Source: Acidobacteriota bacterium (GTDB lineage: Bacteria > Acidobacteriota > Holophagae > Holophagales > Holophagaceae). From it: DNA of 64,000 nt. The stretch lies in NCBI GenBank assembly GCA_016192145.1, contig JACPUT010000016.1:1-64000 (forward strand). The letters run 5' to 3'. Of this stretch, positions 4,784 through 62,712 are shown piece by piece. Below the pieces are notes generated by a model. The model was not told the origin of the DNA, did not search any database, and worked only from the letters and a program-made list of their open reading frames with translations. The position numbers were made by a program, and so were the translations under genes. Within the stretch, counting starts at the first letter, position 1. Each line of letters starts with the position of its first letter.

Positions 4784-4933
4784 GATCGTGCGTCTGGTCC
4801 CACGCCTGGAAGGCGATCGGCTCTAGGCTATTGGCTTTAGCTGATTCCGAAAACACAAGGGGCCGACCGGAATTCCGTTCCCAGCAAGAGCCAAGAGCCA
4901 AGAGCCGAAAGCCTAGAGTCACCCGCACGATCG
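4784..4933. repeat. Tandem-arm inverted repeat A, GGCTYTN heptamer family
   Basis: The outer ends are a perfect 9-bp inverted pair, GATCGTGCG at 4784-4792 and its complement at 4924-4932. Inside, CTCTAGGCT at 4821-4829 pairs with 4910-4918. The left arm is made of heptamers GGCTCTA, GGCTATT, GGCTTTA (4819-4839). The right arm is AAGAGCC three times (4886-4906) then GAAAGCC. The unpaired middle contains GGCCGACC and a CGAAAACAC stretch. It lies between bioB and the convergent GH2 gene and contains no coding sequence that I recognise. Confidence 0.8.
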
Positions 4934-4944
4934 GGGTTGGAGCG

Positions 4945-7419
4945 CTATTCCGGGCCCCGGACGGTGAGCGTCTCGGCCGTGTTCAGGGCGCTGAGGTGGG
5001 CCTTGAAGCGCCGGGGGGATTCGCCCAGGGCCGTGAAGCGCAGGTGCTTCACCTGGCCGGGCACCAGATGGAAATAGTCATCGTCGGGCCTCCAGCCAGG
5101 AGCCTCCACCGCCACGGATTGGAGGAAGGCGCTCCCCGAGAGCTTCAGGATCAGCTCGGTGGAGGTGGTCACCTGGACCTCCGCCCTCCAGCCCACGTTC
5201 TCCACGGGCGCCAGGGCGAGCCCGCTCGGGAAGTGGACATCCTCCGAGATCACGTCGCCCGTGACCGCATCCCGCAACCGGGCCACGGTGGCGTGGTGCT
5301 TGGGCGGCCCGAAGCGGTAGGCGTAGGTGATGTCGGTGAAGGTGCCCAGCAGGGCGTCGGCGGAACGCAGCTCCGTGGAGAAGGGCGCCACCCGCAGGGC
5401 CTCGGAGCCCTTGCCCACGGAAGTCCGGGGGCCCTGCCACAGCTCCAGCTCCACCTGCGCCTCGAGGGGCGCTGGTGAATCGTTCACCACATGAACGCCC
5501 AGGCCATCCAAGCCCTCATCCGAGAGGTGGATGCTCCGGGGTGCCCAGGCCCGGCGGGCATACCAGTAGGCGGCCTTGGGGCGGCCCAGGCTGTCCAGGA
5601 GCCCCCAGCCCGCACCGGGCCAGAGGTCATTCCAGAACCAGACGAGGGCCCCGCCGCAGGTGCTCCCGGCGCGGCGCCACTCGGCGTAGGTGCGCCGGAT
5701 GAGCTCTCCCGTCACCACCCGGGAGCGGGCGTAGTAGCCCTCGGGATCCGCCGCGCGGAGCGCCACGGGATCCACTCCGAAGCCCTCCCGCAGATAGTGG
5801 TCGCGCACGTCCTCGAAGTCCCACCCGGCGCCGGAGTCGCGCGGCACCCGGGCCTTCCAAAGGGGCTGGTGGGGCAGGAGCGGGGCCTCCGGCGAGAGGT
5901 GATCCATCGTCGCGGCATCGGGCACATGGGAGAACCCCAGGCACTCGGGTGTGAACTTCACGGCGGCGGCGCGCGCATCCGCCAGCGGGCGGCGGTAGGC
6001 CCCCACGCCGTAGTAGTGGGTGAGGCCCGTGCCGGTGTGGAAGGGCAGCGCGCCTTCGCAGGGGGTGGACGGGAAGTAGGGAATGCCGGGGTGGAGCCGC
6101 GCGCAGGTGGCGGGTAGTTCCGTGGCGAAGAAGGGGGAGGACCAGTCGGGCCGGGGCAGGCCCAGCATGGCCGCCTGCTGCTCGATCTCGCTGCTCCCGC
6201 AGTAAACCGTGATGCAGGGGTGCTTCTGCAGGCGGGAGAGCTGGGCCACGATCTCCGCTTCCACATCGGCCCGGAAAGGCTCATCGCCAAAGGGGTAGTC
6301 CATGTTGGCGAACATGAAGTCCTGCCACACCATGAGGCCCAGCTCATCGCAGAGGGTGTAGAAGGCCTCGGTTTCGTAGGTCATGGTGCCGCCTACACGG
6401 AGCATGTTCGCGCCCGCGTCCCGCGCCGCCGTGAGGGAGGCCCGCAGCGCCGGGGGATCCGCGGCGAGGGTCACCATGTCCGAGGTGGTCCAGCAGGCGC
6501 CCCGGGCGAAGACGGCCACGCCGTTCACCCGGACCTGCACGAGGCCGCCCGCGCGCTCCACCTGCACGGCCTTGAAGCCCACGCGGCCGCAGGGAAAGGA
6601 GCGGTTCCCCTCCTCGGAGGACAGCTCGATGGCAGCGTCCAGAAGCTGCGGCGCGCCGTGGGTGTGGGGCCACCAGAGGGGGATCTCCGGCAGATCGAAG
6701 GCGCCCTCCAGGTGCAGCGCGTCGCCCTCCCGGGAGGCCCGCAGCGCCAGCTGCTGCTTGCCGACGCGGAGCAGGGCCTCGCTTTTCGCCCACTGGGCGG
6801 GGAGGCGCACCACCGCCTTCAGTTCCACCCGGCCCGTGGTGCCCACGGCCCAGGTGCGCAGATCCAACCAGCGCATCGCCGGGGCGTCCCAGGAGGTCCA
6901 GGTGACGGCCCGCCAGGGGCCCACGGCCTGAATGGGCGGAGTCCAGCCGGGGATGCGGCCCAGCAGCGTGGTGCGGATCCACCGCAGGTTCTGGTTCCGC
7001 ACGAGGGAGGTCTTCCACCGGGGCCGGGGCCGGCGTCCGGCCAGCTCCGCCTCGAGGGACCGGAAGCGGATCACCAGCTCGTGGGGCCCCGCACCCAGGT
7101 CCGGGAGGTCCACTTCGTGGGGGCGGAACATGTTCCGGGATTGCAGGATGAACCGGCCATCCAGCCAGACCTCCGCCAGGGTGGCGAGCCCCTCGAAGTT
7201 CAAGGTGCCGGGCCCCTCGGCGTTGAGCGTGGTGCGGTACCACCAGTCCTGGGAATCGAAGGCTCCCGGCTGATCCACGGAGAGGCCCAGCGTCTGCGCC
7301 ACGGTGCCCGGCACCACCGCGCTGGCCCAGGGGCCTTCATTCATCCAGGGGCCCGGTTCCGCGTGGAGGCCCGGCTCCGTGGGACGCAGCTGCCAGCCGG
7401 TTCCGAAGGGCCCGGTCAT
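4945..7419 (-). CDS. Glycoside hydrolase family 2, beta-mannosidase-like
   Basis: A protein of 824 residues with the GH2 layout: an N-terminal jelly-roll sugar-binding domain (with VWLDGRF and a conserved DWWYRT segment), an immunoglobulin-like middle domain, a TIM barrel and C-terminal beta domains. The acid/base position reads YCGSSEIEQQ where beta-mannosidases usually have GNNE, and the likely nucleophile lies in FTPECLGF. Both glutamates are kept although their neighbours differ, so the substrate may not be a normal mannoside. No signal peptide is seen, so it probably acts in the cytoplasm. The start is set at ATG 7419, which overlaps the upstream stop as ATGA. This coupling ties it to the carrier-protein operon. 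A longer upstream frame exists but is out-of-frame sequence of the neighbour. Confidence 0.85.
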   Translation of the reverse strand: MTGPFGTGWQLRPTEPGLHAEPGPWMNEGPWASAVVPGTVAQTLGLSVDQPGAFDSQDWWYRTTLNAEGPGTLNFEGLATLAEVWLDGRFILQSRNMFRPHEVDLPDLGAGPHELVIRFRSLEAELAGRRPRPRWKTSLVRNQNLRWIRTTLLGRIPGWTPPIQAVGPWRAVTWTSWDAPAMRWLDLRTWAVGTTGRVELKAVVRLPAQWAKSEALLRVGKQQLALRASREGDALHLEGAFDLPEIPLWWPHTHGAPQLLDAAIELSSEEGNRSFPCGRVGFKAVQVERAGGLVQVRVNGVAVFARGACWTTSDMVTLAADPPALRASLTAARDAGANMLRVGGTMTYETEAFYTLCDELGLMVWQDFMFANMDYPFGDEPFRADVEAEIVAQLSRLQKHPCITVYCGSSEIEQQAAMLGLPRPDWSSPFFATELPATCARLHPGIPYFPSTPCEGALPFHTGTGLTHYYGVGAYRRPLADARAAAVKFTPECLGFSHVPDAATMDHLSPEAPLLPHQPLWKARVPRDSGAGWDFEDVRDHYLREGFGVDPVALRAADPEGYYARSRVVTGELIRRTYAEWRRAGSTCGGALVWFWNDLWPGAGWGLLDSLGRPKAAYWYARRAWAPRSIHLSDEGLDGLGVHVVNDSPAPLEAQVELELWQGPRTSVGKGSEALRVAPFSTELRSADALLGTFTDITYAYRFGPPKHHATVARLRDAVTGDVISEDVHFPSGLALAPVENVGWRAEVQVTTSTELILKLSGSAFLQSVAVEAPGWRPDDDYFHLVPGQVKHLRFTALGESPRRFKAHLSALNTAETLTVRGPE

Positions 7420-8393
7420 GCGGGGAACCGGTTCCGGAGGGCCCCCATGCCGCGATCCCAGGCCGCGCCCAGGGCATCGATGACGGCCACATCGAAGGGG
7501 CGCTTCCGTGCCATGGAACGAGCCAGCTGGAACTGATAGGCCTTGGTGGTGGTGCTGATCTCCCGGAAGGCCGCCTCGGCTTCCCCGAGCCCTTCGACGC
7601 CCTGCCGGCCGAGCCACTGCAGGTAGGTGGCGGCCAACTCGTAGCAGGCGCCGAACTGGCGGAAGGTGGCGAAGGAGTAAGCGTGGAAGAGTTCGATGTC
7701 GGCCTTGAGCAGCCACTCCGAATCCGCCTCCAGCCGGGCCTTGAAGGGCCCGAAGGGATTCCGCTCCGGCGCCCGGGCGAGCTGATCCTTCAGCAGCTCC
7801 AGGGAAATGGCCACTTGCTCCTCGGGGGAGGGCTTGCGGAAGTGGCGGAGGAACTTCACGTACTCGATGTAGGGCGGCATCATCCGCGCGTGGACGAGGC
7901 CCTCGGTCTGGAAGATGTCCCTGAAGTCCTGCCCTTCGAGGGCGTGGTAGCCCTGGTTGTGGAAGTAGCCCATCCACTCCCGGGCGGGATCGATGGCGTT
8001 CACGGACACGGTGGATTTCACGTGGGCCAGCTTGTAGGCCGTCCCCGCGGTATCCGGAAGGAAGAAGCTATCCAGCTCCACGAGCACCGGATGCCCCTGG
8101 GCCACCTGTTCCTCGATGTGGGCCACGAGGGGGCGCCAGGGCGCCAGCTCGTGGACCTCGAAGCCGTAGAGGCGCATGAGATCCGCATGCTCGAACTTGA
8201 AGAAGGTCCACTGATCCCCCTCGAAGTCGATGGCCAGGGTGAAGGCCATGGCGGCGAGGGGTTCATGCCCCATCCCGTGGAGCAGCTCCACGATCACGTC
8301 GGTGTAGCAGTTCGTCTCCACCCACGTGCGATCCTCCCCATGGATGAGGTGGCGCTGGTAGGTGGCGGGATCCAGGGGCGCGATGGACTTCAT
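7416..8393 (-). CDS. DUF1839 family protein
   Basis: A 325-residue soluble protein of the DUF1839 family, recognised from LDPATYQRHLIHGEDRTW, the WVETNCYTDV segment, FEGDQWTFFKF and the PVLVELDSFFLPDTAGTAY region. A cysteine-histidine-aspartate arrangement (NCY, HVK, D in AIDP) recalls papain-fold proteins such as BtrH-type acyltransferases. That comparison is an inference. It starts 8 nt after the ligase gene and overlaps the GH2 start by four bases. DUF1839 genes are known to accompany amino acid:[carrier protein] ligases, so a role in handling the aminoacyl group on the carrier protein is plausible. Confidence 0.8.
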   Translation of the reverse strand: MKSIAPLDPATYQRHLIHGEDRTWVETNCYTDVIVELLHGMGHEPLAAMAFTLAIDFEGDQWTFFKFEHADLMRLYGFEVHELAPWRPLVAHIEEQVAQGHPVLVELDSFFLPDTAGTAYKLAHVKSTVSVNAIDPAREWMGYFHNQGYHALEGQDFRDIFQTEGLVHARMMPPYIEYVKFLRHFRKPSPEEQVAISLELLKDQLARAPERNPFGPFKARLEADSEWLLKADIELFHAYSFATFRQFGACYELAATYLQWLGRQGVEGLGEAEAAFREISTTTKAYQFQLARSMARKRPFDVAVIDALGAAWDRGMGALRNRFPA

Positions 8394-8401
8394 GCGGCCC
8401 C

Positions 8402-9328
8402 TCAGGCGCCCAGCTCGAGCACCTTCCGCACGGCGACAGGCCAGGTGGCGGGATCGAGGCCGTGGACCTTGAAGAGGGCCAAGGCGATGCGCTCCAGACC
8501 GAAGCCGATGCAGGCGGTGTGGGCGGGCTGGCCATCCGCGGTGCGGATGTCGAAGGCGTGGCCGAAATAATCGAGGTGGAGGTTGCAGGAGGTGATGGCC
8601 GTGGGCTTCTCCTCGGAGCAGATGGGGATCACCAGCTCGAACTTGAGCACCTGTTCGCGCTGGGTGGCCTTGGCCATGCGGCCGCCGCGCCCGAAAAAGG
8701 GATCGTTGGCCACCACCGACTCCACGGGGAGCCCCACGGAGTGGAGGATCCCCTTTCCCCGCTCCAACCACTCGTCGCGGTGGGCCAGGGCCTGCCCCGC
8801 GGTGCCCAGGCGCACGAATTCCCGCTGACGGAAGATCTGCATGCGCGCGGGGTCATCGGAGGGCTCGTGGCGGAAGACGTAGCCCTGCAGATCCACCAGC
8901 CGGCCGCCCTCGGGCAAGGTCCCCGTGGAGGCCGGATAGAGGGGGTAGCAGGCCGCGGGGATCATCATCACTTCGCTGGGTTCGAGGTCGCGGGTCCAAT
9001 CCTCCCCCCCCTCGAACTTGCGGATCATCTCGGCGTGTTCCGGGTCCTTGCCCATGAAGCTGTGCACGGAGCCCATGAGGTCGGGGAAGTTGTGGATGTG
9101 GTTGATCTCGCAATAGTGCGCCCGGCTGAAGATGGGGGGGAAGCACACCACCTCGGCCTTCATCGGGGCGGCATGCCGCGTGACCAGGGCCTCGAACCGG
9201 GTGATGATCTCCTCGAATCGGCCGCTGCGCCCGTAGACGCCCCGCACCCCGCTGGGGATCAGGAGGCCCGAGTTCACCAGGTCCTCCTGGTAGAGCTTGT
9301 AGGGATCGAGTTCGATGGCTCCGCACAT
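8402..9328 (-). CDS. Amino acid:[carrier protein] ligase (class II aaRS-like)
   Basis: A 308-residue homologue of the catalytic core of seryl-tRNA synthetase without a tRNA-binding arm. Motif 2-like residues are in FRHEP...FRQREFVRLG and motif 3 is CIGFGLERIAL. Cysteines in AACYPLYP and TSCNLHLDYFG with the Glu of QREFVR match the zinc-binding positions of atypical SerRS-like enzymes. Members of this family studied in Bradyrhizobium and Agrobacterium load glycine or alanine on the phosphopantetheine of a small carrier protein rather than on tRNA. Here such a carrier protein is encoded two genes upstream. The start ATG 9328 lies 4 nt after the stop of the upstream gene. The amino acid specificity cannot be read from sequence. 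Confidence 0.88.
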   Translation of the reverse strand: MCGAIELDPYKLYQEDLVNSGLLIPSGVRGVYGRSGRFEEIITRFEALVTRHAAPMKAEVVCFPPIFSRAHYCEINHIHNFPDLMGSVHSFMGKDPEHAEMIRKFEGGEDWTRDLEPSEVMMIPAACYPLYPASTGTLPEGGRLVDLQGYVFRHEPSDDPARMQIFRQREFVRLGTAGQALAHRDEWLERGKGILHSVGLPVESVVANDPFFGRGGRMAKATQREQVLKFELVIPICSEEKPTAITSCNLHLDYFGHAFDIRTADGQPAHTACIGFGLERIALALFKVHGLDPATWPVAVRKVLELGA

Positions 9329-9332
9329 AAAC

Positions 9333-10523: not shown

Positions 10524-10543
10524 GGTGACTCCGGGGAACCTGC

Positions 10544-10783: not shown

Positions 10784-11024
10784 TGATATTTCCTCGCAGT
10801 TCCGGCGGTGATCCACCATTAGACCCTACCGGAATCCAGTAGGCAACCGATCCCCTGGGCTTGGAGTAACCTCGCCATTCGAGGTCATCCAGACCAATTC
10901 CCCCTGCCCTTCCGACCCCTTCCCCTTCGCCGGGAACCGGCCGGAAGCCTATGGAAATCAACGACCTGACTCCTTCAACCGATTCGAAACCAGCCTTCCT
11001 GGCCCCGGAGGGCGAAGGGGTCCG

Positions 11025-12212: not shown

Positions 12213-14828
<2,616 letters not shown>

Positions 14829-16068: not shown

Positions 16069-16198
16069 GATCGCGAATAGCGCGAATAAGGGCGCGAATG
16101 GGGTGACGTGGTTGGTCCCGGTCCTGGGGCCGGGTCCACCTTTATTCAGGTTTTTTCCCTTCGCGCCATTCGCGCCTTTATTCGCGCCATTCGCGATC
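16069..16198. repeat. Tandem-arm inverted repeat D, GCGAAT family
   Basis: Left arm 16069-16101 and right arm 16166-16198 pair at 31 of 33 positions. Each arm holds three copies of GCGAAT (left arm at 16073, 16082, 16094), spaced 9 and 12 nt. The 64-nt middle contains a GC-rich GGTCCCGG...CCGGGTCC foldback and a run of six T at 16151-16156. It fills the gap between the zinc-ribbon gene and the YdeP-like gene and ends 33 bp before the latter. Confidence 0.85.
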
Positions 16199-18937: not shown

Positions 18938-19069
18938 CTCAGGCTGGAGGCTGGAGACTGGAGGCCGATTTGACCGGCGCCACAGGCGCCGGTCGTTTAT
19001 TGAATGTCGCGGCCCCAAGGGCCGCCACCGTCCCCTCCTCCAGCCTCCGGTCTCCGGTCTCCAGCCTCA
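18938..19069. repeat. Tandem-arm inverted repeat E, GGCTGGA family
   Basis: The left arm is GGCTGGA, GGCTGGA, GACTGGA (18942-18962). The right arm holds the complementary heptamers TCCAGCC, TCCGGTC, TCCGGTC, TCCAGCC (19039-19066) followed by TCA, which is the fliI stop codon. Between the arms are two perfect small hairpins: GACCGGCGCC/GGCGCCGGTC (18972-18994, 3-nt loop) and GCGGCCC/GGGCCGC (19009-19025, 3-nt loop). The same two-hairpin plan is found in element F. It lies inside the flagellar operon between fliI and fliJ. Confidence 0.85.
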
Positions 19070-20413
19070 CGCCCCCTCCTTCAGGAACGGCGCCAGATCG
19101 ATCCCGAAGATCTTGCCCATGTCGAGGATCGTCTGCCGCTGGGAACTGTTCTCGGCCGTGGCCTGCCGGAGGAAGGCCTGGATGCCGGGCTGGAACTGGA
19201 TGGCCTGGTCGATGGTGGGGCTGGAGCCCTTGGTGTAGGCGCCGATCTGGATGAGATCCTCGGCGTCGGCGTAGGTGGCCATGAGGTCGCGCACCTTGGC
19301 GCTGAGCTGCTTCTGCTCGGGGAGGGCCAGGGCGCTGAAGAGTCGGCTGAGGCTGCCGAGCACGTCGATGGCCGGGTAGTGGTTGCGGGAGGCCAGCTTT
19401 CGGCTGAGCACGATGTGGCCATCCAGGATGCCCCGCACGGTATCGCTGATGGGCTCGTTGAGGTCGTCGCCCTCCACCAGCACGGTGTAGAGGCCCGTGA
19501 TGGAACCCGCCTCCTCGAAGGAACCGGCCCGCTCCATGAGGCGCGGCAGCAGGGCGAACACCGAGGGCGTGTAGCCCCGGCTGGAGGGCGGCTCCCCGGC
19601 GCTGAGGCCCACCTCGCGCTGGGCCATGGCGAAGCGGGTGACGCTGTCCATCATCATGAGGACGTCGCGCCCATCCTTCATGAAGTGCTCCGCGACGGCC
19701 GTGGCGGCGAGGGCGCAGCGGAGGCGGAGGAGGGGCGAAAGGTCGCTGGTGGCCACGACCACGACGCTGCGCTTGAGGCCCTCGGGGCCCAGGTCGTGCT
19801 CGATGAACTCGCGCAGCTCGCGGCCCCGCTCGCCCACGAGGGCGATGACGTTGACGTCGGCGGCGGTGTTGCGGGCCATCATGCCCAGGAGCGTGGACTT
19901 GCCCACGCCGGAGCCGGCGAAGATGCCCACGCGCTGCCCCTTGCCCAGGGTGAGCAGGCCATCCACCACCCGCACGCCCACGCTCAGGGATTCGCGGATG
20001 GGGCGGCGCCGCATGGGATTGCGGGGCTGCCCGTGCAAGGGCGCGTGGTGCACCAGATTGAGCTCCGGCCCCCCATCCAGGGGCCGCCCCAGGGGATCGA
20101 TGACCCGGCCCAGCAGCTCCTCGCCCACGGGGATCATGGCGGGATGGCCCGCGGCTTCCACGCTCATGCCGGGGCGGATGCCCTCGGTGTCCTCGAGCGG
20201 CATGAGCAGCACGCGCTTGTCATGGAAGCCCACCACCTCCGCGTGGATGACGCGGCCCCAGCCCGCATGGATGAGCACCTGCTCCCCGATGCTGCAGTCG
20301 GGCCCCACGCTCTCCACCACGAGGCCCACCACCTTCGTCACCTTGCCCATCCACTCGGCGGAGGGGAGCTTGCCGATGCGGGCGATGAGGTGATCGTAGG
20401 CGGGGACCGTCAT
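19067..20413 (-). CDS. fliI: Flagellum-specific ATP synthase FliI
   Basis: ATPase of the flagellar type III secretion apparatus, 448 residues, related to the F1 beta subunit. The P-loop is GSGVGKST in a GIFAGSGVGKSTLLGMM context (about residue 165). Other family marks are VVVVATSDLSPLLRLR, MMMDSVTRFAMAQREVGLSAGEPPSSRGY and GSITGLYTVLVEGDD. It hexamerises at the base of the export gate with FliH and FliJ, whose genes flank it. Its TGA stop lies within the right end of repeat element E and its upstream gap holds element G. Confidence 0.97.
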   Translation of the reverse strand: MTVPAYDHLIARIGKLPSAEWMGKVTKVVGLVVESVGPDCSIGEQVLIHAGWGRVIHAEVVGFHDKRVLLMPLEDTEGIRPGMSVEAAGHPAMIPVGEELLGRVIDPLGRPLDGGPELNLVHHAPLHGQPRNPMRRRPIRESLSVGVRVVDGLLTLGKGQRVGIFAGSGVGKSTLLGMMARNTAADVNVIALVGERGRELREFIEHDLGPEGLKRSVVVVATSDLSPLLRLRCALAATAVAEHFMKDGRDVLMMMDSVTRFAMAQREVGLSAGEPPSSRGYTPSVFALLPRLMERAGSFEEAGSITGLYTVLVEGDDLNEPISDTVRGILDGHIVLSRKLASRNHYPAIDVLGSLSRLFSALALPEQKQLSAKVRDLMATYADAEDLIQIGAYTKGSSPTIDQAIQFQPGIQAFLRQATAENSSQRQTILDMGKIFGIDLAPFLKEGA

Positions 20414-20448: not shown

Positions 20449-20561
20449 ACCACCAAGACACCAAGACACCAAGAAAAGCAGCTGATGAAAGGGGATCCAT
20501 GCCCCCATGGTCCATGACCCGTGGTCTATTCCCTTCCTGGGTGTCTTGGTGTCTTGGTGGT
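20449..20561. repeat. Tandem-arm inverted repeat G, CCAAGACA octamer family
   Basis: A perfect 22-bp inverted pair (20449-20470 with 20540-20561). The left arm is octamers CCAAGACA, CCAAGACA, CCAAGAAA (20453-20476); the right arm has two complementary TGTCTTGG units (20542-20557), followed after a few bases by eight T (20564-20571). The 69-nt middle itself shows a drifting 7-nt pattern (ATGGTCC, ATGACCC, GTGGTCT at about 20507-20527). The 5' flank is TCGGGAAAAGG. It lies between fliH and fliI. The T run would suit a terminator on the plus strand, opposite to the operon. Confidence 0.88.
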
Positions 20562-20591: not shown

Positions 20592-21353
20592 TCAACCCTC
20601 CAACAACCGGCCCAGCAGCTCCATGAGCCGCTGCCGCCGCCGCTCTAACGTGGCGTCCAATACCCCATCCTCGGCTTCGAGGCTGAGGCTGCCGCGGGAG
20701 AGGGAGGCATCCTCCACGAGGCGCAGGCCCAGGTGGCCCACGTAGTGGTCGCCCAGCTGCTCGAGGTCATGGGGGTTGAGGTGGACGACCAGGGGCTTCT
20801 CGCCCGTCTCCCGGGTGCGGGGAACGGGAAAGGGCAGGCGCTCCAGCACCCGGTCCACCAGGGCTTTGACGCTATCCGACGAGCGCTCGATCTGCTGGGC
20901 GGCGAGGTGTTCTCCCACGGCGAGGCAGAGGGCGAGCATCTGCTCATCGGCCTGATCCTTCACCAGGCCGGTGGCCTCGGCGAGCTCCTTGAGCTCCCCT
21001 TCAAGGCGCTGGATGTAGGTACGGTACTGGCTCTCGCCGAAGGCGCGGCCCTCCGCCTCACCGGCCTGGAAGCCCCGCTCGAAGGCCGCTTGCTCGATTT
21101 CCGTGGCCTTGCGCTCGGCCTCCTGCATGCGTTCGTAGATGATCTGGTCCACGGAGATGAGGCGGGCGGCATCCTCCTCCGCGCTGCTCAGCTGGGAACC
21201 GATGGACTCGTCATCCACGTCCCCCGCCTCGGCGGCCATGGCCAGTTCCGGATCGATGGCCCGGTAGGCGAAGGCCGCCAACTGGGCGTCCTGCACCTGC
21301 TCCGCGGGGATGAACCGCGCGCCGGGCCGGGATGCGGGCCGATTAGGAGACAT
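20592..21353 (-). CDS. fliH: Flagellar assembly protein FliH
   Basis: About 253 residues from ATG 21353 (MSPNRPASRPGARFIPAEQ). It regulates the FliI ATPase and carries it to the export gate. The middle is a long charged helix (residues about 65-140) with a GxxxG-like FERGFQAGEAEGRAFGE segment typical of FliH, followed by the globular C-terminal half with LEDAxLxRGxxxLE-type residues EDASLSRGSLSLE. The proposed start overlaps the end of fliG by 11 bases; a start six codons earlier is also possible. Confidence 0.9.
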   Translation of the reverse strand: MSPNRPASRPGARFIPAEQVQDAQLAAFAYRAIDPELAMAAEAGDVDDESIGSQLSSAEEDAARLISVDQIIYERMQEAERKATEIEQAAFERGFQAGEAEGRAFGESQYRTYIQRLEGELKELAEATGLVKDQADEQMLALCLAVGEHLAAQQIERSSDSVKALVDRVLERLPFPVPRTRETGEKPLVVHLNPHDLEQLGDHYVGHLGLRLVEDASLSRGSLSLEAEDGVLDATLERRRQRLMELLGRLLEG

Positions 21354-24021: not shown

Positions 24022-24293
24022 AGAGCCTGTTTCTGAATCCGCGGGGGCCGTGCGATGGGCGCCGGCGGAGCGAGCCGAGGCGACCGACCGAGGCCGCACC
24101 GGGAGTGCGGTGAGGGAGGTCAACGCAGGGTCGCGACAGCCGCCGCCCGTCGCCCACAGGGTTGGCCGCCAGCCGCTCCCCCAGCTGCGTCACAGCCCTT
24201 GGGCGATGCAACCACATCGCCCTGCGGGCACTTCCTTGCTGGATGAAGCGGCTGACGACCAACACGACCCCCGGGGATTCAGAAACAGGCTCT
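24022..24293. mobile_element. 272-bp non-autonomous element with terminal inverted repeats (MITE-like)
   Basis: The ends are a perfect 19-bp inverted pair, 24022-24040 (AGAGCCTGTTTCTGAATCC) and 24275-24293, and partial pairing goes on for about ten more bases (CGGGGG on one side, CCCCCG on the other). The inside has a hairpin GGGCGATG/CATCGCCC at 24201-24222 and no gene that I can support. No clear target duplication is seen in the flanks. Size and structure fit a deletion derivative of an insertion sequence moved in trans. It fills most of the 305 bp between fliF and fliE. Confidence 0.75.
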
Positions 24294-31673: not shown

Positions 31674-31748
31674 TGGCGCGTAGCTCAGCGGTAGAGCACC
31701 ACCTTGACACGGTGGGGGTCGGCGGTTCGAGACCGCCCGCGCCAACCA
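31674..31748 (+). tRNA. tRNA-Val (anticodon GAC)
   Basis: A 75-nt cloverleaf. The acceptor stem TGGCGCG (31674-31680) pairs with CGCGCCA (31738-31744). The D arm is AGCTCAGCGGTAGAGC. The anticodon stem CCACC/GGTGG encloses TTGACAC with anticodon GAC. The T arm is GGCGG-TTCGAGA-CCGCC. The discriminator A is followed by an encoded CCA. A hairpin terminator follows 6 bp later. Confidence 0.96.
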
Positions 31749-31777: not shown

Positions 31778-31915
31778 GTTGGCGCGGGCGGTCTCGAGCC
31801 GCCGACCATTCGGAGGGCGCGCAGGTAGGGCCCACCTATGACCCTGCGGGGCAGGGTCGTAGGTGAATAGGCCCGTGCGCAGCCCGACGCAGGTTCGAGA
31901 CCGCCCCGCGTCAAA
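31778..31915. repeat. Mirrored copy of the tRNA-Val 3' end plus long hairpin
   Basis: Bases 31778-31806 are the reverse complement of the tRNA 3' part and trailer (31718-31746) with 28 of 29 matches. A central hairpin CACCTATGACCCTGC/GCAGGGTCGTAGGTG (31833-31865) follows. Then comes a direct 15-nt copy of the tRNA T-arm, GGTTCGAGACCGCCC, at 31892-31906. The whole forms an imperfect inverted repeat with tRNA-like arms. It is not a tRNA gene: no D or anticodon arm is present. It could be a trace of an element that used the tRNA as integration site. Confidence 0.7.
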
Positions 31916-38337: not shown

Positions 38338-39201
38338 CTAGCTGTCCTCGGTGGTCAGGTTTCTCCAGAATGACGGGATGCCGTCCGCTTGCAAGGGCAC
38401 CTGCGCCTTGATCTGTTTCGCCAGGGCCTGGAAGGCCTGGCCCGAGGGGCTGGTCGGGTAGAGGTCGGCGACGCTGTGCTGCTGGCGGACGGATTGGAGG
38501 ATGTGCGGATCCGAGGGGATCACGCCCAGCACCTTCAGCTGTTTGCCGAGGAAGCGCTGCACGGCGGCCTGGAGCTGGCCGATGGTCTCCTCGGCCTCAT
38601 CGAGGTTCTGGCCGTTGTTCACGAGGAGCCAGACCTCCTTCTCGGGATCCCGGAGGTGCAGCACCTTCACCATGGCGTAGGCGTCCACGAGGCTCGTGGG
38701 CTCGGGCGTGGTGACGAGGATGACCTCCTGGGCGGCCATGAGCAGCTTCACCACGGAATCGTGGATGCCCGCGGCCGTGTCGATGAGGAGCCAGTCGGAG
38801 GTCTCCGCCACCCGCTGCAACCCCTGCACGAGGCGCAACTCCGCCATGGTGTCCAGGCGTGTCAGCTCCTGGATTCCGCTGGAGGCGGGGATGATGCGGA
38901 TGCCCATGGGGCCGTCCAGCAGGATCTCCTCCAGCAGCTTCTCGCCCCGCAGCACGTGCTCCAGGGTGTACTGGGGCGAGAGCCCGAGCAGGATGTCCAG
39001 GTTGGCGAGGCCGAAGTCGGCGTCCATCACCACCACCCGCTGGCCCATGCGGGCCAGGGAGATGGCGAGGCCCGCCACCACGTTCGTCTTGCCCACACCG
39101 CCCTTGCCGGAGGTGATGGCCACCACGCGACCGTGGAAATAGGTCTTGGGGGCCTGCTGACCCTGGGCCAGGGCGCGAAGGCGGGAGGCCTGGTCGGTCA
39201 T
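38338..39201 (-). CDS. flhG: MinD-like ATPase FlhG (YlxH)
   Basis: A 287-residue ParA/MinD-family ATPase that controls flagellar number and placement with FlhF. The deviant Walker A is TSGKGGVGKTNVVAGLAISL, with DADFGLANLDILLGL (switch I) and WLLIDTAAGIHDSV (Walker B). It is placed between fliA and flhF as in many polar or peritrichous flagellates. Its ATG 39201 lies 14 bp from repeat element B, which separates it from flhF. Confidence 0.94.
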   Translation of the reverse strand: MTDQASRLRALAQGQQAPKTYFHGRVVAITSGKGGVGKTNVVAGLAISLARMGQRVVVMDADFGLANLDILLGLSPQYTLEHVLRGEKLLEEILLDGPMGIRIIPASSGIQELTRLDTMAELRLVQGLQRVAETSDWLLIDTAAGIHDSVVKLLMAAQEVILVTTPEPTSLVDAYAMVKVLHLRDPEKEVWLLVNNGQNLDEAEETIGQLQAAVQRFLGKQLKVLGVIPSDPHILQSVRQQHSVADLYPTSPSGQAFQALAKQIKAQVPLQADGIPSFWRNLTTEDS

Positions 39202-39214: not shown

Positions 39215-39366
39215 CAGGCTTCAGGCTTTGGGCTCTTGGCTCTAGTTGATATCGACCCACGAAATCCCCACAGCCGACACCACGAAACACGTTTTCGAAG
39301 GACCCAGCCGAAACCTTTGCGTGGGTCGGCCCCAGCCAGAGCCGAAAGCCTAAAGCCGAGAGCCTC
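39215..39366. repeat. Tandem-arm inverted repeat B, GGCTYTN heptamer family
   Basis: The left arm is four heptamers GGCTTCA, GGCTTTG, GGCTCTT, GGCTCTA (39217-39244). The right arm (39333-39366) is the complementary series, whose reverse complement reads GGCTCTC, GGCTTTA, GGCTTTC, GGCTCT. Inside, CGACCCACG (39253-39261) pairs perfectly with CGTGGGTCG (39320-39328), and a CGAAACACGTTTTCG foldback sits in the middle. It ends two bases before the flhF stop codon, between flhF and flhG in the flagellar operon. Confidence 0.85.
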
Positions 39367-39367: not shown

Positions 39368-40678
39368 TCATTGCACGCCCCCGGGCAAGATCAGATCCGC
39401 AACCCGTCGGCTGGTGGCCATCTCCAGGGCCTCGGGCACCTCCTGGCCCGTGGCCAGGTAGCTGAGCGGGCGCTTCACGCGCACCAGAGTGCCCAGAAGG
39501 GGACCGTAGGTGGAAGTCTCATCGAGCTTGGTGAAGATCATGCGGGTGGGTTTCAGGGCTTCGTAGCGCTGGGCGATCTCGGCGAGATCCCGGGGCTTGG
39601 TGGTGGCGGAGAGGACGAGGTGCGTCTCGCAGTTGGGCAGCTCATCCAGGAAGGTGCGGAGCTGGGCGAGCATGGTTTCATCCTTGGGGCTGTGGCCCGG
39701 CGTATCCACGAGCACGAGGCTGCGGTCCTGGTAGAAGCGCATGGCCGAGCGCAGATCCTCCACCGTCAGCGCCACGTGGAGGGGCACCTGGAGGATGCGG
39801 GCGTACTCCTGGAGCTGGTCGACGGCGGCGAGGCGGTAAGTGTCCAGGGTGACGAGGGCCACCTTCTGCTTGAGGTGCAGCTGGGCATAGGCCGCGAGCT
39901 TGGCCAACGTGGTGGTCTTGCCCACGCCGGTGGGGCCCACGAGCACGGCCACTTGCGTCTTGCCCGGCTCCAGCTGGATGGGGCTCGCCACGGGGATGTA
40001 GTCGGCGATGACGCGGCGCAGGAAGAGGCGGGCCTTCTCGGGGTCGATGACGTCGGCGTCGTCGTGCCCCTCCTGCTCCATGAGGCTGCGCTGGGCGAAT
40101 TCGCAGAGCCGCAGGGCGAGCATGGGCTCCAGATCGTTGGAGACCAGATCGCCGTACAGGGAGAGCATGGCCGGGGGGAGGGCCAGCTGGCTGGGGGGCA
40201 TCCCCTGCTTCTGGAGGCGGCCCATCATGCCCTTGAGCTCATCCAGCTCGCGCAGGATGGCGGTGTTCTTCGTCTCCTGATCCTTCAGCGCGGCGACGGC
40301 ACCCTTGATCTCCAGCAGCTCGCGGCGGATGGGCTGGAGGTCCATGGGGGGCGGGGGGGGCGCCGGATGGGCGGCTTGGGCGGCGGGCCTCGCAGGCTGG
40401 GAGGCCGCCGCGCGGGCCGGGCCGGATTCCAGGGCGGGGCGCAAACCGTAGGTGAGGGGCGCGGCGACCTTCAGTTCCTCGGCGCCCGCCGCCTTGGCGG
40501 GGGGGGCCGCGTCATCGGTGGCGGCGGTCACCTCGATGAGGGTCTCCTCCCGCAGGCCGAAACCACCGGCCTTCTTCTTGGTCTTCGTGGAGAGGATGAA
40601 GGCCTCCTCGCCCATTTCCTTTTTGATGGTGTCCAGGGCCTCCTGCATGGAGGCGGCCTCGAAGGTCTTTACGCGCAT
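39368..40678 (-). CDS. flhF: Flagellar biosynthesis GTPase FlhF
   Basis: A 436-residue SRP-type GTPase that sets flagellar position. N-terminal basic/variable region with MRVKTFEAASMQEALDTIK, a long Pro/Ala linker (about 80-140), an N domain and the G domain with P-loop VGPTGVGKTTTLAKLAAY, LVTLDTYRLAAVDQLQEY, VDTPGHS and TKLDET. The C-terminus is short (ILPGGVQ). It forms a functional pair with FlhG encoded next to it and follows flhA by 25 bp. Confidence 0.96.
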   Translation of the reverse strand: MRVKTFEAASMQEALDTIKKEMGEEAFILSTKTKKKAGGFGLREETLIEVTAATDDAAPPAKAAGAEELKVAAPLTYGLRPALESGPARAAASQPARPAAQAAHPAPPPPPMDLQPIRRELLEIKGAVAALKDQETKNTAILRELDELKGMMGRLQKQGMPPSQLALPPAMLSLYGDLVSNDLEPMLALRLCEFAQRSLMEQEGHDDADVIDPEKARLFLRRVIADYIPVASPIQLEPGKTQVAVLVGPTGVGKTTTLAKLAAYAQLHLKQKVALVTLDTYRLAAVDQLQEYARILQVPLHVALTVEDLRSAMRFYQDRSLVLVDTPGHSPKDETMLAQLRTFLDELPNCETHLVLSATTKPRDLAEIAQRYEALKPTRMIFTKLDETSTYGPLLGTLVRVKRPLSYLATGQEVPEALEMATSRRVADLILPGGVQ

Positions 40679-51242: not shown

Positions 51243-51309
51243 GCGGGAAAGGGATGAACCACCAAGACACCAAGGCACCAAGAAAAGCCAAAAGGCATTT
51301 GGTGGTTCA
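51243..51309. repeat. Tandem-arm inverted repeat H, CCAAGACA octamer family (short)
   Basis: The left arm is octamers CCAAGACA, CCAAGGCA, CCAAGAAA (51262-51285). An 11-bp inverted pair, TGAACCACCAA (51255-51265) with 51299-51309, forms the outer stem. The 5' flank GCGGGAAAGG is the same as in element I, and the arm ends in GAAAAGCC as in G and I. The right arm has mostly been lost. Further hairpins GCTTTCAAAGC (51310-51320) and CCTGCGTC/GACGCAGG (51349-51372) fill the rest of the 174-bp gap. Confidence 0.7.
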
Positions 51310-55661: not shown

Positions 55662-55671
55662 GCCCCGGGCG

Positions 55672-55759
55672 ATAGGCTCTGGGCTTTTGCAGGCGCCGAC
55701 CCACCCTGGGTCGGCGCCTGTTTTTAACTAGAGCCCAGAGCCGAGAGCCCAAAGCCTTA
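55672..55759. repeat. Tandem-arm inverted repeat C, GGCTYTN heptamer family
   Basis: The left arm is GGCTCTG, GGCTTTT (55675-55688). The right arm (55729-55759) is a complementary series of four heptamers, whose reverse complement reads GGCTTTG, GGCTCTC, GGCTCTG, GGCTCTA. The middle is a perfect 14-bp hairpin (55690-55703 with 55707-55720) containing GCCGACCCA, the sequence also paired inside element B. The 27 bp after the right arm lead to the ispG start. Confidence 0.85.
55690..55725 (+). terminator. Terminator of flgE within element C
   Basis: A perfect 14-bp stem CAGGCGCCGACCCA with a CCC loop is followed by five T. It is the strongest intrinsic terminator in the window on the plus strand and stands 28 bp after the flgE stop. 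Confidence 0.85.
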
Positions 55760-55786
55760 CAATGGACCTTCCGAGGTCGACGCCCC

Positions 55787-57198: not shown

Positions 57199-57356
57199 GA
57201 GGCTGGAGACCGGAGGCTGGAGACCGGAGGCTGGAGACCGGAGGCTGGAGGCGGGAATCGGTGCGGGCGCCAGGGGCGCCCGACTTAGGGAAGGTGCGGC
57301 CCTCAGGGCCGCGGCGCATTCCCCCTCCAGCCTCCGGTCTCCAGCCTCTAGCCTCA
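57199..57356. repeat. Tandem-arm inverted repeat F, GGCTGGA family (longest)
   Basis: The left arm is eight heptamers in a row alternating GGCTGGA and GACCGGA (57201-57256). The right arm is TCCAGCC, TCCGGTC, TCCAGCC, TCTAGCC (57326-57353) and then TCA, the stop codon of the minus-strand gene that follows. Between them lie two small hairpins, CGGGCGCC/GGCGCCCG (57264-57282) and GCGGCCC/GGGCCGC (57296-57312), with 3-nt loops, matching element E in order and type. It begins at the yidD stop codon. Confidence 0.88.
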
Positions 57357-57572
57357 GCCCGCATCCCGCAGGCTGAACCGATCCACGCTGCCCGCCGTCT
57401 CCACCAGGGTCGCGGCCCGCTGCATCCGCAGGGTGTGCTGCACCGTCTGCATGGCGCTCATGAGGGGCAGATCGATGCCCAGGCGCTGGAGATCGGCCTG
57501 GGTGAACCAGGTGGTGTCGCCATGGCCCTTGCGGGCCTGATGGTCGGATAGGACTTTTTCGGTGATGCCCAC
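57354..57572 (-). CDS. Hypothetical small protein
   Basis: A 72-residue soluble protein with GTG start at 57572 and a clear AAGGAG ribosome site six bases before it. It reads VGITEKVLSDHQARKGHGDT at the start, then a region with DLQRLGIDLPLMSAMQTVQ; no family is recognised. The strong ribosome site and normal codon use support that it is real. It ends inside repeat element F and is read away from plsC, with only 48 bp between the two starts. Confidence 0.6.
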   Translation of the reverse strand: MGITEKVLSDHQARKGHGDTTWFTQADLQRLGIDLPLMSAMQTVQHTLRMQRAATLVETAGSVDRFSLRDAG

Positions 57573-57620
57573 GGGAAACTCCTTGCCCTGCTACGTTTGA
57601 AATAGCACAAGGAGCGTTGG

Positions 57621-58352
57621 GTGGCCAGCTTCAGGGACAATTGGGCATTCGGAATTGTGACGATGGTCTGGGGCGCGATCATGGTGGTCGTCACCGTGGT
57701 GAGCATCCTGATCGCGGCACCCTTCCTCGGCCCGCGGAAGGCCTTCTTCACCATCGCGCCCATGTTCTATCGGAGCGTCTTCAGGGTGTGCGGCGTCACC
57801 TGGGCCATCGAAGGGTGGGAGGAGCTGCCCGAGGCGATCCGGAACGGCACCCAGCCCTGCATCTTCATGTGCAACCACGAGAGCCAACTGGACCCGCCCT
57901 TCCTCGTGGGCATCCTGCCCGCGCACCCCGTCTTCATCGCGAAGAAGGAAGTGAAGTACATCCCCTTCGTGGGCTGGGCGGCCATGTGCGCCGGCGTGAT
58001 CTTCATCGACCGCGGCCACCGGGAACGGGCCATCGGCAGCCTCTCCCAGGCCGCCGCCGGCATCCGCTCGGGTAAGAGCGTGGTGGTGTTCCCCGAGGGC
58101 ACCCGCACCCGTACCGGTGAGTTGCTCCCGCTCAAGAAGGGTTCCTTCAACCTCGCCATCGAAGCCCAGGTGCCCGTCGTGCCCATGGGGCTCAACGGCG
58201 CCTACCAGGTGCTGGCCCCCGGCGCGAGGCGCATTTCCCCGGGCCACTACCGGCTGCGCGTGGGCGCCCCGCTGGATCCCGCCTCCTTCCAGGACCGGGA
58301 AGCCCTCATGGCCGAGACGCGGCAGAGCATCCTGCGGCTTTCCCGAGGCTAG
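57621..58352 (+). CDS. plsC: 1-acyl-sn-glycerol-3-phosphate acyltransferase
   Basis: Makes phosphatidic acid in phospholipid synthesis, 243 residues. It has an N-terminal membrane segment (FGIVTMVWGAIMVVVTVV), the HX4D catalytic motif in CNHESQLDPPF, FVGWAAMCAGVIFIDR and the FPEGTRTRTG substrate motif, plus VPVVPMGLNGAYQV. The start GTG 57621 follows AAGGAG by six bases. It is read away from the small minus-strand gene. Confidence 0.93.
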   Translation: MASFRDNWAFGIVTMVWGAIMVVVTVVSILIAAPFLGPRKAFFTIAPMFYRSVFRVCGVTWAIEGWEELPEAIRNGTQPCIFMCNHESQLDPPFLVGILPAHPVFIAKKEVKYIPFVGWAAMCAGVIFIDRGHRERAIGSLSQAAAGIRSGKSVVVFPEGTRTRTGELLPLKKGSFNLAIEAQVPVVPMGLNGAYQVLAPGARRISPGHYRLRVGAPLDPASFQDREALMAETRQSILRLSRG

Positions 58353-58361
58353 GAAAAGGGT

Positions 58362-60887
<2,526 letters not shown>

Positions 60888-60934
60888 GGGGTCTGGGCCG
60901 TGAGCCCCAAGTATAGGGCTTGTTACCCTGGGGC

Positions 60935-61657
60935 ATGACCACCCCTGATCCCGACTTCAATCCCTACCAACCGCCCACCGTGGGCGATCTGGAACCTGCC
61001 CGGCCCGAGGCGCAGGCCCCGGCCCCCCTGCCCTGGGAGGATCGGGAGCGATTCCCGGGCTTCTGGAAGCGCGTGGGCGAGATGTTCCACCTGGTATTCA
61101 ACGACCCTTTGGGATTCTTCGAGCGGGTGCCTCGGGGCTCCGGCTTCACGCGGCCCTGGCAGTTCCAGCTGCTTCTGTTGACCCCCGTCTTCCTCATCCT
61201 GTTGCTGGTGTTCGGTGCGCTGGGCGTGGCGGGCAGCTTGGCCACCCTGGGGACCCCCAGCAAGGACGCGCCTCCGGCTTGGATCTTCCCGCTGTTGATC
61301 CCCGCATTCCTCATCCTGATCCCCGCGTTCATGTTCCTGGGGATGCTCATCGGCGGCCTGTTCTCCCACTTCTTCCTCTGGCTCTGGGGCGGACTGAAGG
61401 CCGGGGAACCCCTGCACCACACGATTCGGGCCCAGGGCTACGCCAGCGCCTTCATCTCGCTCGGGGGAATGATCCCCTACCTCGGCATCCTCGTGCAGTT
61501 GGCGGGGTTCGTGTGGATGGGCATGGGCCTGGCACGGATGCACCGCACCGACACCTGGCGTGGCATCTGCGCGATGCTCACGCCGATCTTCCTCTGCTGT
61601 TGCGTTGCCATCCTGGCCGCGATCATGATCCCCGCGCTGATCGCCGCCCGCCACTGA
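60935..61657 (+). CDS. YIP1-like membrane protein
   Basis: A 240-residue integral membrane protein. A proline-rich cytoplasmic head (MTTPDPDFNPYQPPTVGDLE) is followed by FKRV- and FFERVPRG-like residues (FWKRVGEMFHLVFNDPLGFF) and five hydrophobic segments, an arrangement seen in bacterial YIP1-domain proteins. A small double-cysteine run (LCCCVAIL) lies near the C-terminus. Function unknown. Start ATG 60935 lies 47 bp from the kinase start on the opposite strand; the 3' end overlaps the next gene by 35 bp. Confidence 0.75.
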   Translation: MTTPDPDFNPYQPPTVGDLEPARPEAQAPAPLPWEDRERFPGFWKRVGEMFHLVFNDPLGFFERVPRGSGFTRPWQFQLLLLTPVFLILLLVFGALGVAGSLATLGTPSKDAPPAWIFPLLIPAFLILIPAFMFLGMLIGGLFSHFFLWLWGGLKAGEPLHHTIRAQGYASAFISLGGMIPYLGILVQLAGFVWMGMGLARMHRTDTWRGICAMLTPIFLCCCVAILAAIMIPALIAARH

Positions 61658-62303
61658 GCCATTGCGTCACCGCGGGTGCGGCCACTTCAGGCGCCAGCAC
61701 CCGCTGGACGGCCCCGGCTTCCAGGGCCTGACTCGCGTCCCAGTGTTCCAGGGACGCGAAGAGCCGGTCCGCCCCGGTTTCCCCCAGCAATTCCACGAGG
61801 CGCACGGTGCCGCCAAAGCCCGTGAGGATGCCGTGCTTGGCCGCGGGGTGCGCCAGGCGGAGCCCCTCCACCGCCCAGCGTTCCTGGCCGTGGAGCAGCA
61901 GATCGCAACCGCCGCCCATGGCCACGCCACTGCCCAGGGTGAGGGTGCGCCAGCCGGGCCACAGCAGGTGCGACATCACCTGCTGACCCAGCCGAGCGAA
62001 GGGCTCCGCCGTATTGGGATCGAGGCTGCCCACTTCGTTGAGGTCCGCACCCGCACAGAAGTGATGTCCCGTACCCTCCATCCAGGCCGCGCCGGAGAGG
62101 GCGATCCGCCGGACACCCGACCACCGCAGCTCGATGAAGCAGCGATCCAAGGCCTTCAGCGTATCGGCGTGCAGCCGGTGGAAGCCATCACCACTGCGTA
62201 AGCCTATCCAGGCCCAGCCGGGCCCCCGGGCCACGTCCACGTGGGTGCGCCCCTCAAAGTAGCGGTCGGGATTCACCAGGCCACCCCAGCGATCGCCTTG
62301 CAT
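61623..62303 (-). CDS. Enoyl-CoA hydratase/isomerase family protein
   Basis: A 226-residue crotonase-fold protein. The oxyanion hole regions are FCAGADLNEVGS and LGSGVAMGGGCDLLLHG, and the later HPAAKHGILTGFGGTVRL fits the catalytic region. Crotonases hydrate, isomerise or hydrolyse acyl-CoAs; in this one the usual Glu of hydratases at the second site is not evident (AKHGILTG), so the reaction is uncertain. It is convergent with the YIP1-like gene and overlaps it by 35 bp. Confidence 0.8.
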   Translation of the reverse strand: MQGDRWGGLVNPDRYFEGRTHVDVARGPGWAWIGLRSGDGFHRLHADTLKALDRCFIELRWSGVRRIALSGAAWMEGTGHHFCAGADLNEVGSLDPNTAEPFARLGQQVMSHLLWPGWRTLTLGSGVAMGGGCDLLLHGQERWAVEGLRLAHPAAKHGILTGFGGTVRLVELLGETGADRLFASLEHWDASQALEAGAVQRVLAPEVAAPAVTQWLSGGRRSARGS

Positions 62304-62712
62304 CCGACCGGCGGGATCGGTTGGTTTCCATCCCCTGCATCCCCTTGATCCGGGCGATCAGAAAAGCGGTTCTCCAATGGATTCCGAGGAGTGCCTGGGT
62401 GTTCTATGCACCACGTGGTCCCAAGCGGGAAAGGCAGAACGCAGAGGCACAGAGGCGCGGAGGCGCGGAGGAAAAGCCTTGGGGCTGGAGCATCCCGATC
62501 CATCCCTGGTTTGGCCCGGCCCGGCTTCCTTTCTCTGCGCCTCTGCGCCTCTGCGCCTCTGCGTTGGCATTTGCCTTTCACGCCCTGGATTCCCGGCGTA
62601 GGAGCCCTGAAACCTTCGCGCATTCGATCCGCCCCAACCGGGGCGCTTCGAAGCAAGGCCTCCAACGCCTCGATCGCGAGTGGCTCGCCCTTGGTGCTCC
62701 ACGGCGTAGTCA
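62304..62712. other. 409-bp gap between the crotonase-like gene and miaA
   Basis: No convincing gene is found here. About 150 bp are repeat element I (62424-62579). The remainder is unique DNA with GATCCGGGCGATC-type partial symmetry and no clear promoter. No T-rich terminator was found for miaA. Confidence 0.5.
62424..62579. repeat. Tandem-arm inverted repeat I, CAGAGGCG octamer family
   Basis: The left arm (62429-62478) contains CAGAGGCA, CAGAGGCG, CGGAGGCG, CGGAGGAA (62442-62473). The right arm (62523-62579) has four complementary CTCTGCGC units (62533-62564). Outer GAAAGGCA pairs with TGCCTTTC. The flank GCGGGAAAGG is shared with element H, and the arm ends in GGAAAAGCC as in G and H. 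The loop of 44 nt is GC-rich. Confidence 0.85.

Follow-up and report, generated by a model that had tools for sequence, protein, structure and literature searches.

Inverted Repeats with Tandem-Unit Arms in a Holophagaceae Genome: Probable Non-Autonomous Copies of Two Classes of Very Small Mobile Element

Results

Nine inverted repeats in the window

The subject of this report is a set of nine intergenic inverted repeats in a stretch of 64,000 nucleotides (the window; positions 1 to 64,000, forward strand, of contig JACPUT010000016.1, assembly GCA_016192145.1) from an Acidobacteriota bacterium of the family Holophagaceae, whose genome (G000) comprises 3.80 Mb in 19 contigs. A first-pass annotation, made from the sequence alone, had proposed that all nine share one plan, with a left arm of short tandem units, a middle, and a right arm of the complementary units. 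Inspection of the sequence and folding confirmed this plan for nine of the nine stretches, and all are real, with most of the right arm lost in the copy at 51243. The folds are very stable. The window copies are gene-less.

Units of 7 nt make up the arms of the element at 4784–4933 (GGCTCTAGGCTATTGGCTTTAG / AAGAGCCAAGAGCCAAGAGCC; core arms at 4817–4843 and 4882–4908), which is placed by its period in the S23 class described below and whose unit was grouped with those of the elements at 39215–39366 and 55672–55759 as GGCTCTD-like. The element at 39215–39366 has a subterminal CGACCCA and lies between the gene at 38338 and a gene for an SRP54-type GTPase (39368–40678, minus strand; the flhF position), which it adjoins; in the element at 55672–55759 the middle is a GC-rich hairpin with CGACCCA. 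Units of AGGCTGG/AGACCGG, also 7 nt long, form the arms at 18938–19069 and at 57199–57356, the latter element starting at the end of the preceding called gene. By eye, and unscored, CGACCCA adjoins both the GGCTCTD and the AGGCTGG arms. Units of 8 nt occur as CACCAAGR at 20449–20561 (arms 20449–20470 and 20540–20561) and in the truncated element at 51243–51309 (which retains three left-arm units and about one right-arm unit), and as GCRCRGAG at 62424–62579 (arms 62438–62470 and 62533–62565). The element at 16069–16198 is built of 9/12-nt CGCGAATRR units (arms 16069–16101 and 16166–16198). A conserved gene for a FliI-type ATPase of type III secretion or flagellar systems (19067–20413, minus strand) is flanked by elements on both sides, the one at 18938 separating it from the next gene (fliJ position) and the one at 20449 from the gene at 20592 (fliH position).

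At the gathering threshold, Rfam matched only a tRNA over the whole window, with no known RNA family for the elements and no rRNA.

Abundance and placement in the genome

A sample of 40 systematically placed 20-kb stretches of G000 (800 kb) was found to contain 119 inverted repeats at an inverted-repeat score of at least 14. A strict criterion, which requires in addition ungapped arms that are both tandem at one period, was satisfied by 43 of them; three dinucleotide shuffles gave 4–11 and 0, respectively. For the sample and window together (864 kb) the counts were 132 and 47, against 5–10 and 0 in six local shuffles (150-nt blocks). The periods of the 43 strict structures are 7 (19), 8 (8), 9 (8), 10 (7), and 14 (1), and by motif they form nine unit groups with one left over. 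Extrapolation gives 204 structures per genome, a number that is probably low because the strict scan recovers just four of the nine window elements. One element per 7 kb, the earlier estimate, is correct within the window; in the sample the strict scan yields 43 per 800 kb.

Placement relative to genes was judged with a simple in-house gene caller, which called 88% of the DNA coding. All nine window elements lie in called gaps, as had been claimed; for the 52 structures from sample (43) and window (9) the statement that none lies inside a gene fails for two. The remainder occupy tandem (24), convergent (16), and divergent (7) gaps, with three at stretch ends. All 670 junctions divide into 439 tandem, 125 convergent, and 106 divergent, and the 259 gaps of at least 100 nt into 154, 36, and 69. 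Convergent gaps are therefore over-represented (16 of 47 structures versus 125 of 670 junctions or 36 of 259 longer gaps). This distribution fits selection against gene hits together with tolerance, or use, near gene ends.

Insertion at sites that are empty in relatives

The comparison of orthologous gaps that had been proposed earlier was carried out at three flagellar junctions. For fliI, regions were fetched from 11 of the 14 genomes of the family in which it had a close match. The gaps on its two sides, which hold the elements at 18938 and 20449, contain none in any of these relatives (11 of 11 for either gap); the flhF gap, the site of the element at 39215, is likewise element-free in six of six fetched. 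In these relatives the gaps measure some tens of bases at most, or the genes overlap. The elements are lineage-specific insertions.

The exact unit pair CACCAAGRCACCAAG was found 0 to 100 times per genome among 61 genomes of the family, 32 of which have any match; its reversed control had no match across the same 61 genomes. The inverted pair occurs in at least 114 stretches of public genomes, with middles that are taxon-specific; the record titles name Holophagaceae, other Acidobacteriota, Alpha- and Betaproteobacteria, Desulfuromonadales, Verrucomicrobia, Phycisphaerae, Bacteroidales, Kouleothrix, and others. The ends of 113 CACCAAG elements are fairly sharp, since the similarity of the left and right sides fades about 5–11 bases beyond the first unit; the commonest form is TTCAC|CACCAAG ... 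CTTGGTG|GTGAA, and the sequence outside the arms leans to A/T. In Azospirillum canadense an element lies in a gap that is empty in two A. brasilense plasmids and in one of A. thermophilum. These alignments give presence and absence at one locus with a junction not resolved to the base; a second pair was unalignable at the site, and the orthologue was not found for a third query.

The first-pass annotation had also held that arms are more alike within an element than between elements, and had suggested that they are made or corrected together. The observation was reproduced for the inner arm half (0.52 within versus 0.41 between, n = 115 CACCAAGR elements). The suggestion was not supported in this family, the only one compared: the outer linker base (A or G) does not covary between the arms of 113 elements (Fisher p 0.29), nor does the second linker base in 41 elements (p 1.0).

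In one further own-genome structure (L209 3882–4422, contig C9) CACCAAG arms stand about 540 bp apart around a GC-rich middle with an apparent 9-nt unit array and no clear gene; this element is perhaps nested or decayed.

Small genes between the arms

The genomes G050 and G052 belong to the same family and were taken as Geothrix fermentans DSM 14018 and G. fuzhouensis SG12. In G050 a pair of CACCAAG arms 1.05 kb apart brackets a 322-codon gene of the DUF4268 family (PF14088; L208 3103–4155), which also matches the candidate phage-defence model PDC-S11 and is possibly the result of a cargo swap. Small orphan genes were therefore tested for arms. Two families, PF13366 (GxxExxY, PDDEXK_3) and PF05635 (S23, 23S_rRNA_IVP), were chosen on the lead of what we took to be arm-like sequence at the starts of their database proteins. 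PF13366 was matched in 25 of 29 genomes, with five copies in G000, and PF05635 in five of 29, with two copies in G000; in a wider draw PF05635 was found in 58 of 119 Acidobacteriota genomes.

One procedure was applied to all loci, which are those among the matches listed for genomes that hold more. It found inverted tandem arms immediately beside the gene at 63 of 77 GxxExxY and 29 of 36 S23 places. Random control places, taken from these loci at a distance of 800 bases or more, had no such arms (0 of 301), and in the own-genome sample 5 of 400 random places reach a score of at least 14 and 0 of 400 a score of at least 17. The 77 places comprise 30 listed PF13366 loci, 17 further ones (15 plus L040 and L219), and 30 loci from genomes of other groups and control genomes; the 36 comprise seven genes of the first genome set and 29 new Acidobacteriota loci. 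The second piece of an interrupted S23 gene (L277) and 25 truncated copies from genome G006 (L281–L285, L298–L317) were excluded before the count.

Unit length follows the protein. The 63 armed GxxExxY places have periods of 8 (25), 9 (21), 10 (16), and 6 (1), never 7, and the 29 armed S23 places have periods of 7 (23), 8 (5), and 9 (1); for period 7 versus the rest, the Fisher test gives 1.7e-16. Eight plasmid loci examined later, fetched from 33 records listed (26 S23, 7 GxxExxY) and picked by protein match, have arms in eight of eight, with period 7 in five of five S23 and 8–10 in three of three GxxExxY loci. Their hosts are cyanobacteria, Sphingomonas, Bernardetia, and Bacteroides. On the Sphingomonas plasmid a GxxExxY element lies between fabD and fabG, and on a Pseudanabaena plasmid (L393) an S23 element with long 7-nt arms lies between cas6 and cas4. 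In viral contigs, arms accompany 33 of 44 S23 loci, several of them near-duplicates, with period 7 in 30 and 8 in three. An alignment query returned one GxxExxY relative from viral contigs (L401, 9-nt arms) and a single query none; no relative was found in the phage collection.

We know of no function for the GxxExxY and S23 proteins, widespread as both are. The GxxExxY proteins match PF13366 and TIGR04256 far above the cut-off. In an alignment of 25 of the 77, 12 columns do not vary in any protein, including G20, E23, and Y26 as well as D63, E73, and K75. The last three form a D..ExK set, which is typical of PD-(D/E)XK nucleases and catalytic in them. By these marks the proteins fall in the PD-(D/E)XK nuclease superfamily, and nuclease activity is predicted. 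A single-sequence fold model of one of them was poor, with a mean pLDDT (predicted local distance difference test) of 48. The S23 protein matches the solved structures 2gsc (E 3.5e-21) and 2rld, each with five chains. The best match, 2gsc (XCC0516), is presumably the Xanthomonas campestris S23p structure cited in PMC4990558, which, in the part available, describes X. campestris S23p as a pentamer. No known transposase or recombinase was matched in the gene-bearing copies scanned, which carry GxxExxY, S23, or DUF4268 genes.

Two candidates were set aside. Genome G006 has 49 PF13366 matches, which at first resembled self-amplification of a GxxExxY deletion derivative. The identical flanks proved to be those of an IS5-like insertion sequence (IS), named from its transposase end, that carries a GxxExxY element of about 359 bp, truncated to 54 codons, in dozens of copies (L282–L285, L298–L317). 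The other candidate, a 1134-bp pair in L221 read as one long element, was rejected since two gene-less elements there flank an ordinary gene. This arrangement, a 377-codon open frame between two 8-nt elements (L221 5860–7100), may be composite or due to chance.

Gene-less copies and their gene-bearing relatives

Several window units recur around genes in the own genome. The CGCGAATRR unit of the element at 16069 also surrounds two GxxExxY genes (L279 and L280; C7:381857 and C1:19870), and the AGGCTGG unit of the elements at 18938 and 57199 surrounds an S23 gene (L273; C1:468701). Gene-less TCCTTAG copies match the own-genome S23 element L276, sharing with it a GCTGGCGCCGACCCA-like subterminal sequence, and the gene-less CACCAAG copies of G050 begin with CACCAAGAAAAG and end with GCAGTTCTTGGTG, like the GxxExxY copy of that genome; both comparisons were made by eye and unscored. 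Because subterminal sequence is common to gene-bearing and gene-less copies in these two families, the latter look like internal-deletion derivatives, resembling miniature inverted-repeat transposable elements (MITEs), and this derivation is supported by inspection. No gene-bearing copy was found in G000 with three of the window units, GGCTCTD, CACCAAGR, and GCRCRGAG. Gene-bearing CACCAAG partners are present in G050, G046, and G060, and in G006 a GxxExxY gene lies between GCGCGGAG arms (L287).

The association between protein and arm was also determined quantitatively. For 62 GxxExxY elements (the 63 armed ones without a single case in which the inverted repeat is no array of units), protein identity correlates with shared arm 6-mers (Mantel rho 0.38, a value reached in 0 of 1000 permutations). 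Between an element and its nearest neighbor by protein, an arm 6-mer is common to both in 52 of 62 cases, where 27.6 would be expected, and the period is the same in 43 of 62 (20.7 expected). Relatives of the G050-type CACCAAG nuclease scoring at least 200 bits (76–100% identity), a line drawn after seeing the data, were found in seven of 13 genomes with at least 20 unit-pair matches and in 0 of 29 with fewer; nuclease score and unit-pair count give a Spearman coefficient of 0.40 (p 0.009) over the 42 genomes, which are part of the 61 family genomes, the remainder being mostly without unit-pair matches. GxxExxY genes were found in 23 of 24 genomes of other groups, hand-chosen for organism spread from the stretches with gene-less CACCAAG elements, versus three of 14 well-known control genomes.

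Two further features of the window are recorded here. A tRNA gene at 31674–31745 is followed by an inverted copy of its 3′ part (30 nt; 31717–31746 versus 31778–31807), and an inverted repeat at 24022–24293 has non-tandem 31-nt arms 210 nt apart.

Discussion

In the explanation that we consider likely, very small mobile elements exist in two parallel classes, in each of which a small protein acts on the arms, and the nine structures are their non-autonomous, MITE-like copies. A complete element would measure about 0.4–0.7 kb and consist of one small gene (about 100–140 codons) between inverted arms of tandem units. The first class would encode a GxxExxY protein of the PD-(D/E)XK nuclease superfamily and have 8-, 9-, or 10-nt units, and the second would encode an S23 four-helix-bundle protein and have mostly 7-nt units. 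Gene-less copies would arise by internal deletion, with the arms and some subterminal sequence retained. Many copies of the small protein may bind the unit arrays at both ends and pair them, after which the element would be excised or copied and would land in an intergenic gap without detectable target duplication; gene-less copies would be moved in trans while a cognate gene-bearing copy is present in the genome. Such binding by many protein copies could be the reason that the arms are arrays with a unit length tied to the protein, and the outer linker base may be free to differ between arms because the unit is kept more than the pairing. The data above show the architecture, the association of arms with genes, the relation of period to protein, and insertion at sites that relatives have empty; we infer movement by the GxxExxY and S23 proteins, and with it the cutting, the strand transfer, the choice of target, and any role of the hairpins.

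A mobile element was one of the options named in the first-pass annotation. It is supported by the lineage-specific insertions, the 0–100 matches of one unit pair per genome in the family, the gene-bearing versions, and a unit common to several phyla; what that reading lacked were the two arm classes and the linked genes. Two other suggestions made there, the co-correction of arms (compared in the CACCAAGR family) and reverse transcription, were not supported.

Several observations weigh against the two-class explanation. Movement of the elements was not observed, and the usual proof of transposition is withheld as well: in the 113 CACCAAG elements, the one family compared, direct repeats of 3–9 nt are not in excess at the flanks, so that a target duplication was not detected. 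A base-level empty site was not found, the relatives being too diverged. Four copies of the G006 IS match joined flanks. The three of them that are readable at the site look like deletion scars and give no target site, since two units of the right arm are still present and a deletion between GATCCT repeats would account for them. The arm test fails at 14 of the 77 GxxExxY and seven of the 36 S23 places, where arms are short but visible (L350, L351, L363) or were not seen (e.g., L246, L253, L355), and the units of six of the 29 S23 elements are 8 or 9 nt long. The correlation between protein and arm is due in part to close paralogues, and co-divergence of the two would also be expected from linkage alone. 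In Azospirillum no subterminal sequence was seen to be shared by the gene-less CACCAAG copies and the gene-bearing one. Lowering the line for cognate nucleases admits one of the 29 low-copy genomes at 180 bits and four of 29 at 165 bits, where the high-copy genomes with such a nuclease still number seven of 13. The own genome has 66 CACCAAG matches and a best nuclease relative of 116 bits (46% identity), and together with five others it forms a group of six genomes with at least 20 matches that hold orphan copies with no cognate nuclease. Orphan copies are usual for many MITEs.

These orphan families also bear on an alternative that we regard as unlikely, in which gene and arms are selfish and mobile but are moved by host replication or repair, or by the enzyme of another element, and the small proteins do something else, such as nuclease addiction, regulation, or RNA binding. 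It agrees with the scan of gene-bearing copies, in which no known transposase or recombinase was matched, with the one G050 element that holds a DUF4268 gene and its candidate phage-defence match instead, and with the amplification of a GxxExxY element as a passenger of the G006 IS. It leaves unexplained why, in different phyla, two unrelated proteins recur within arms and each has a unit length of its own, and the invariant nuclease-type residues speak against bystanders. More improbable still is that the structures are bidirectional terminators or mRNA-stabilizing hairpins of the host, made and corrected locally and kept for their fold. The very stable folds, the excess in convergent gaps, the A/T-leaning sequence outside the CACCAAG arms, and the greater likeness of inner arm halves within an element all suit such structures. 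They would not be expected to bracket genes, to use the same 8-mer pair in several phyla, to vary from 0 to 100 unit-pair matches among genomes of one family, to have outer linkers without covariation, or to appear as insertions between flagellar genes where relatives have none. This reading is already disfavored by these data, and the elements may have a secondary role as host structures.

Two further mechanisms seem to us scarcely tenable. Inverted ends, intergenic location, and many copies recall REPINs moved by RAYT proteins, or MITEs of a DDE transposase. PF01797 (RAYT) was not matched in G000, which agrees with the first-pass view that this is not a REP layout, nor in the high-copy G050, and four of 28 genomes have one; the gene-bearing copies scanned are without transposase, and the 113 elements are without a target duplication of 3–9 nt. 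Equally remote is reverse transcription of a hairpin RNA with S23 acting like the retroelement protein Avd, close to the reverse-transcription-like step suggested earlier. The match of one own-genome S23 protein to the Avd model is weak (E 5e-4), at 20 bits versus a cut-off of 80. RVT_1 was not matched in G000 or in G050 and G046, the two relatives richest in CACCAAG, and was matched in five of 25 genomes; a standard reverse transcriptase is therefore not at hand now in these three. Genome G015 has seven RVT_1 copies of equal score, and 20 of the 25 genomes searched have no match.

The explanation by two classes of mobile element can be widened. We lean, by a modest degree, toward GxxExxY and S23 being the mobilizing proteins of two convergent classes of minimal element, with arrays of short binding units as ends, that are the source of a large share of the puzzling intergenic heptamer-to-decamer repeats of bacteria, including those of Xanthomonas and Nostoc, with the intervening sequences (IVSs) of 23S rRNA being S23 elements that landed in rRNA. 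If this is correct, two common orphan protein families would gain a function, an explanation would be at hand for a large number of intergenic repeats, across many phyla, that now lack one, and mobile elements with a new type of end, arrays of short units, and no known transposase would be recognized. None of the known enzyme classes, end types, or element families tested fits, and on this ground we regard the class as new. The unit-length rule and the small size make the proposal directly testable in E. coli with two plasmids.

Comparison with known systems

The logic of gene-bearing and gene-less copies is the same as that of ISs and MITEs, the latter being internal-deletion derivatives that retain the ends. 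The present elements differ from MITEs of DDE-type ISs in the lack of a transposase in the gene-bearing copies scanned and of a target duplication in the CACCAAG family. REPINs, which are short inverted intergenic elements moved in trans, are similar by analogy. Their arms are palindromic REP sequences that bear a conserved tetranucleotide tag, whereas the arms here are tandem 7–10-nt units, and a RAYT gene was found in neither G000 nor G050. The retroelements (diversity-generating retroelements, retrons, and group II introns) are set apart by a reverse transcriptase, for which RVT_1 found no match in G000.

Tandem 7-nt intergenic repeats have been described as TAACTGA in Beggiatoaceae (PMC4679880) and as the heptamers of Nostoc (PMC4692102); as far as the excerpted texts go, both are mainly direct arrays, not inverted like the elements here. 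S23 genes on two Nostoc plasmids do sit between 7-nt arms. The GGGAATC heptamers of Xanthomonas are closer, being tandem and, with 70 and 75 close pairs on opposite strands in two species, forming inverted repeats; the sections of PMC4692102 at hand treat them as G-quadruplex repeats and give no link to a gene or mobile element.

The other of the two nearest precedents is the IVS in the 23S rRNA of Coxiella, which the excerpt of PMC4990558 presents as a small selfish element with an S23p gene preceded by tandem GACAGAT heptamers, and for which mobility was hypothesized. The shared protein, S23p (PF05635), was found here for the 7-nt class only, in two own-genome S23 elements, and the window copies are gene-less. 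As described in that excerpt, the IVS occupies a helix of 23S rRNA, from which RNase III excises it, whereas the elements reported here are located between protein genes and, among the copies found, mostly hold no gene; that excerpt makes no mention of the GxxExxY class. Insertions in the rRNA genes of the candidate phyla radiation can likewise encode 23S_rRNA_IVP, termed functionally uncharacterized in the portion of PMC11270868 available, and the term GxxExxY appears only incidentally in that of PMC8934634.

In the open-access literature, to which the search was directed with subscription papers outside its scope, no paper was found that joins arms, genes, and gene-less copies, and searching by unit strings returned nothing relevant. 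Part of the system is nevertheless known already, to judge from the excerpts cited above: the inverted heptamers of Xanthomonas, and the IVS with its S23p gene and heptamers.

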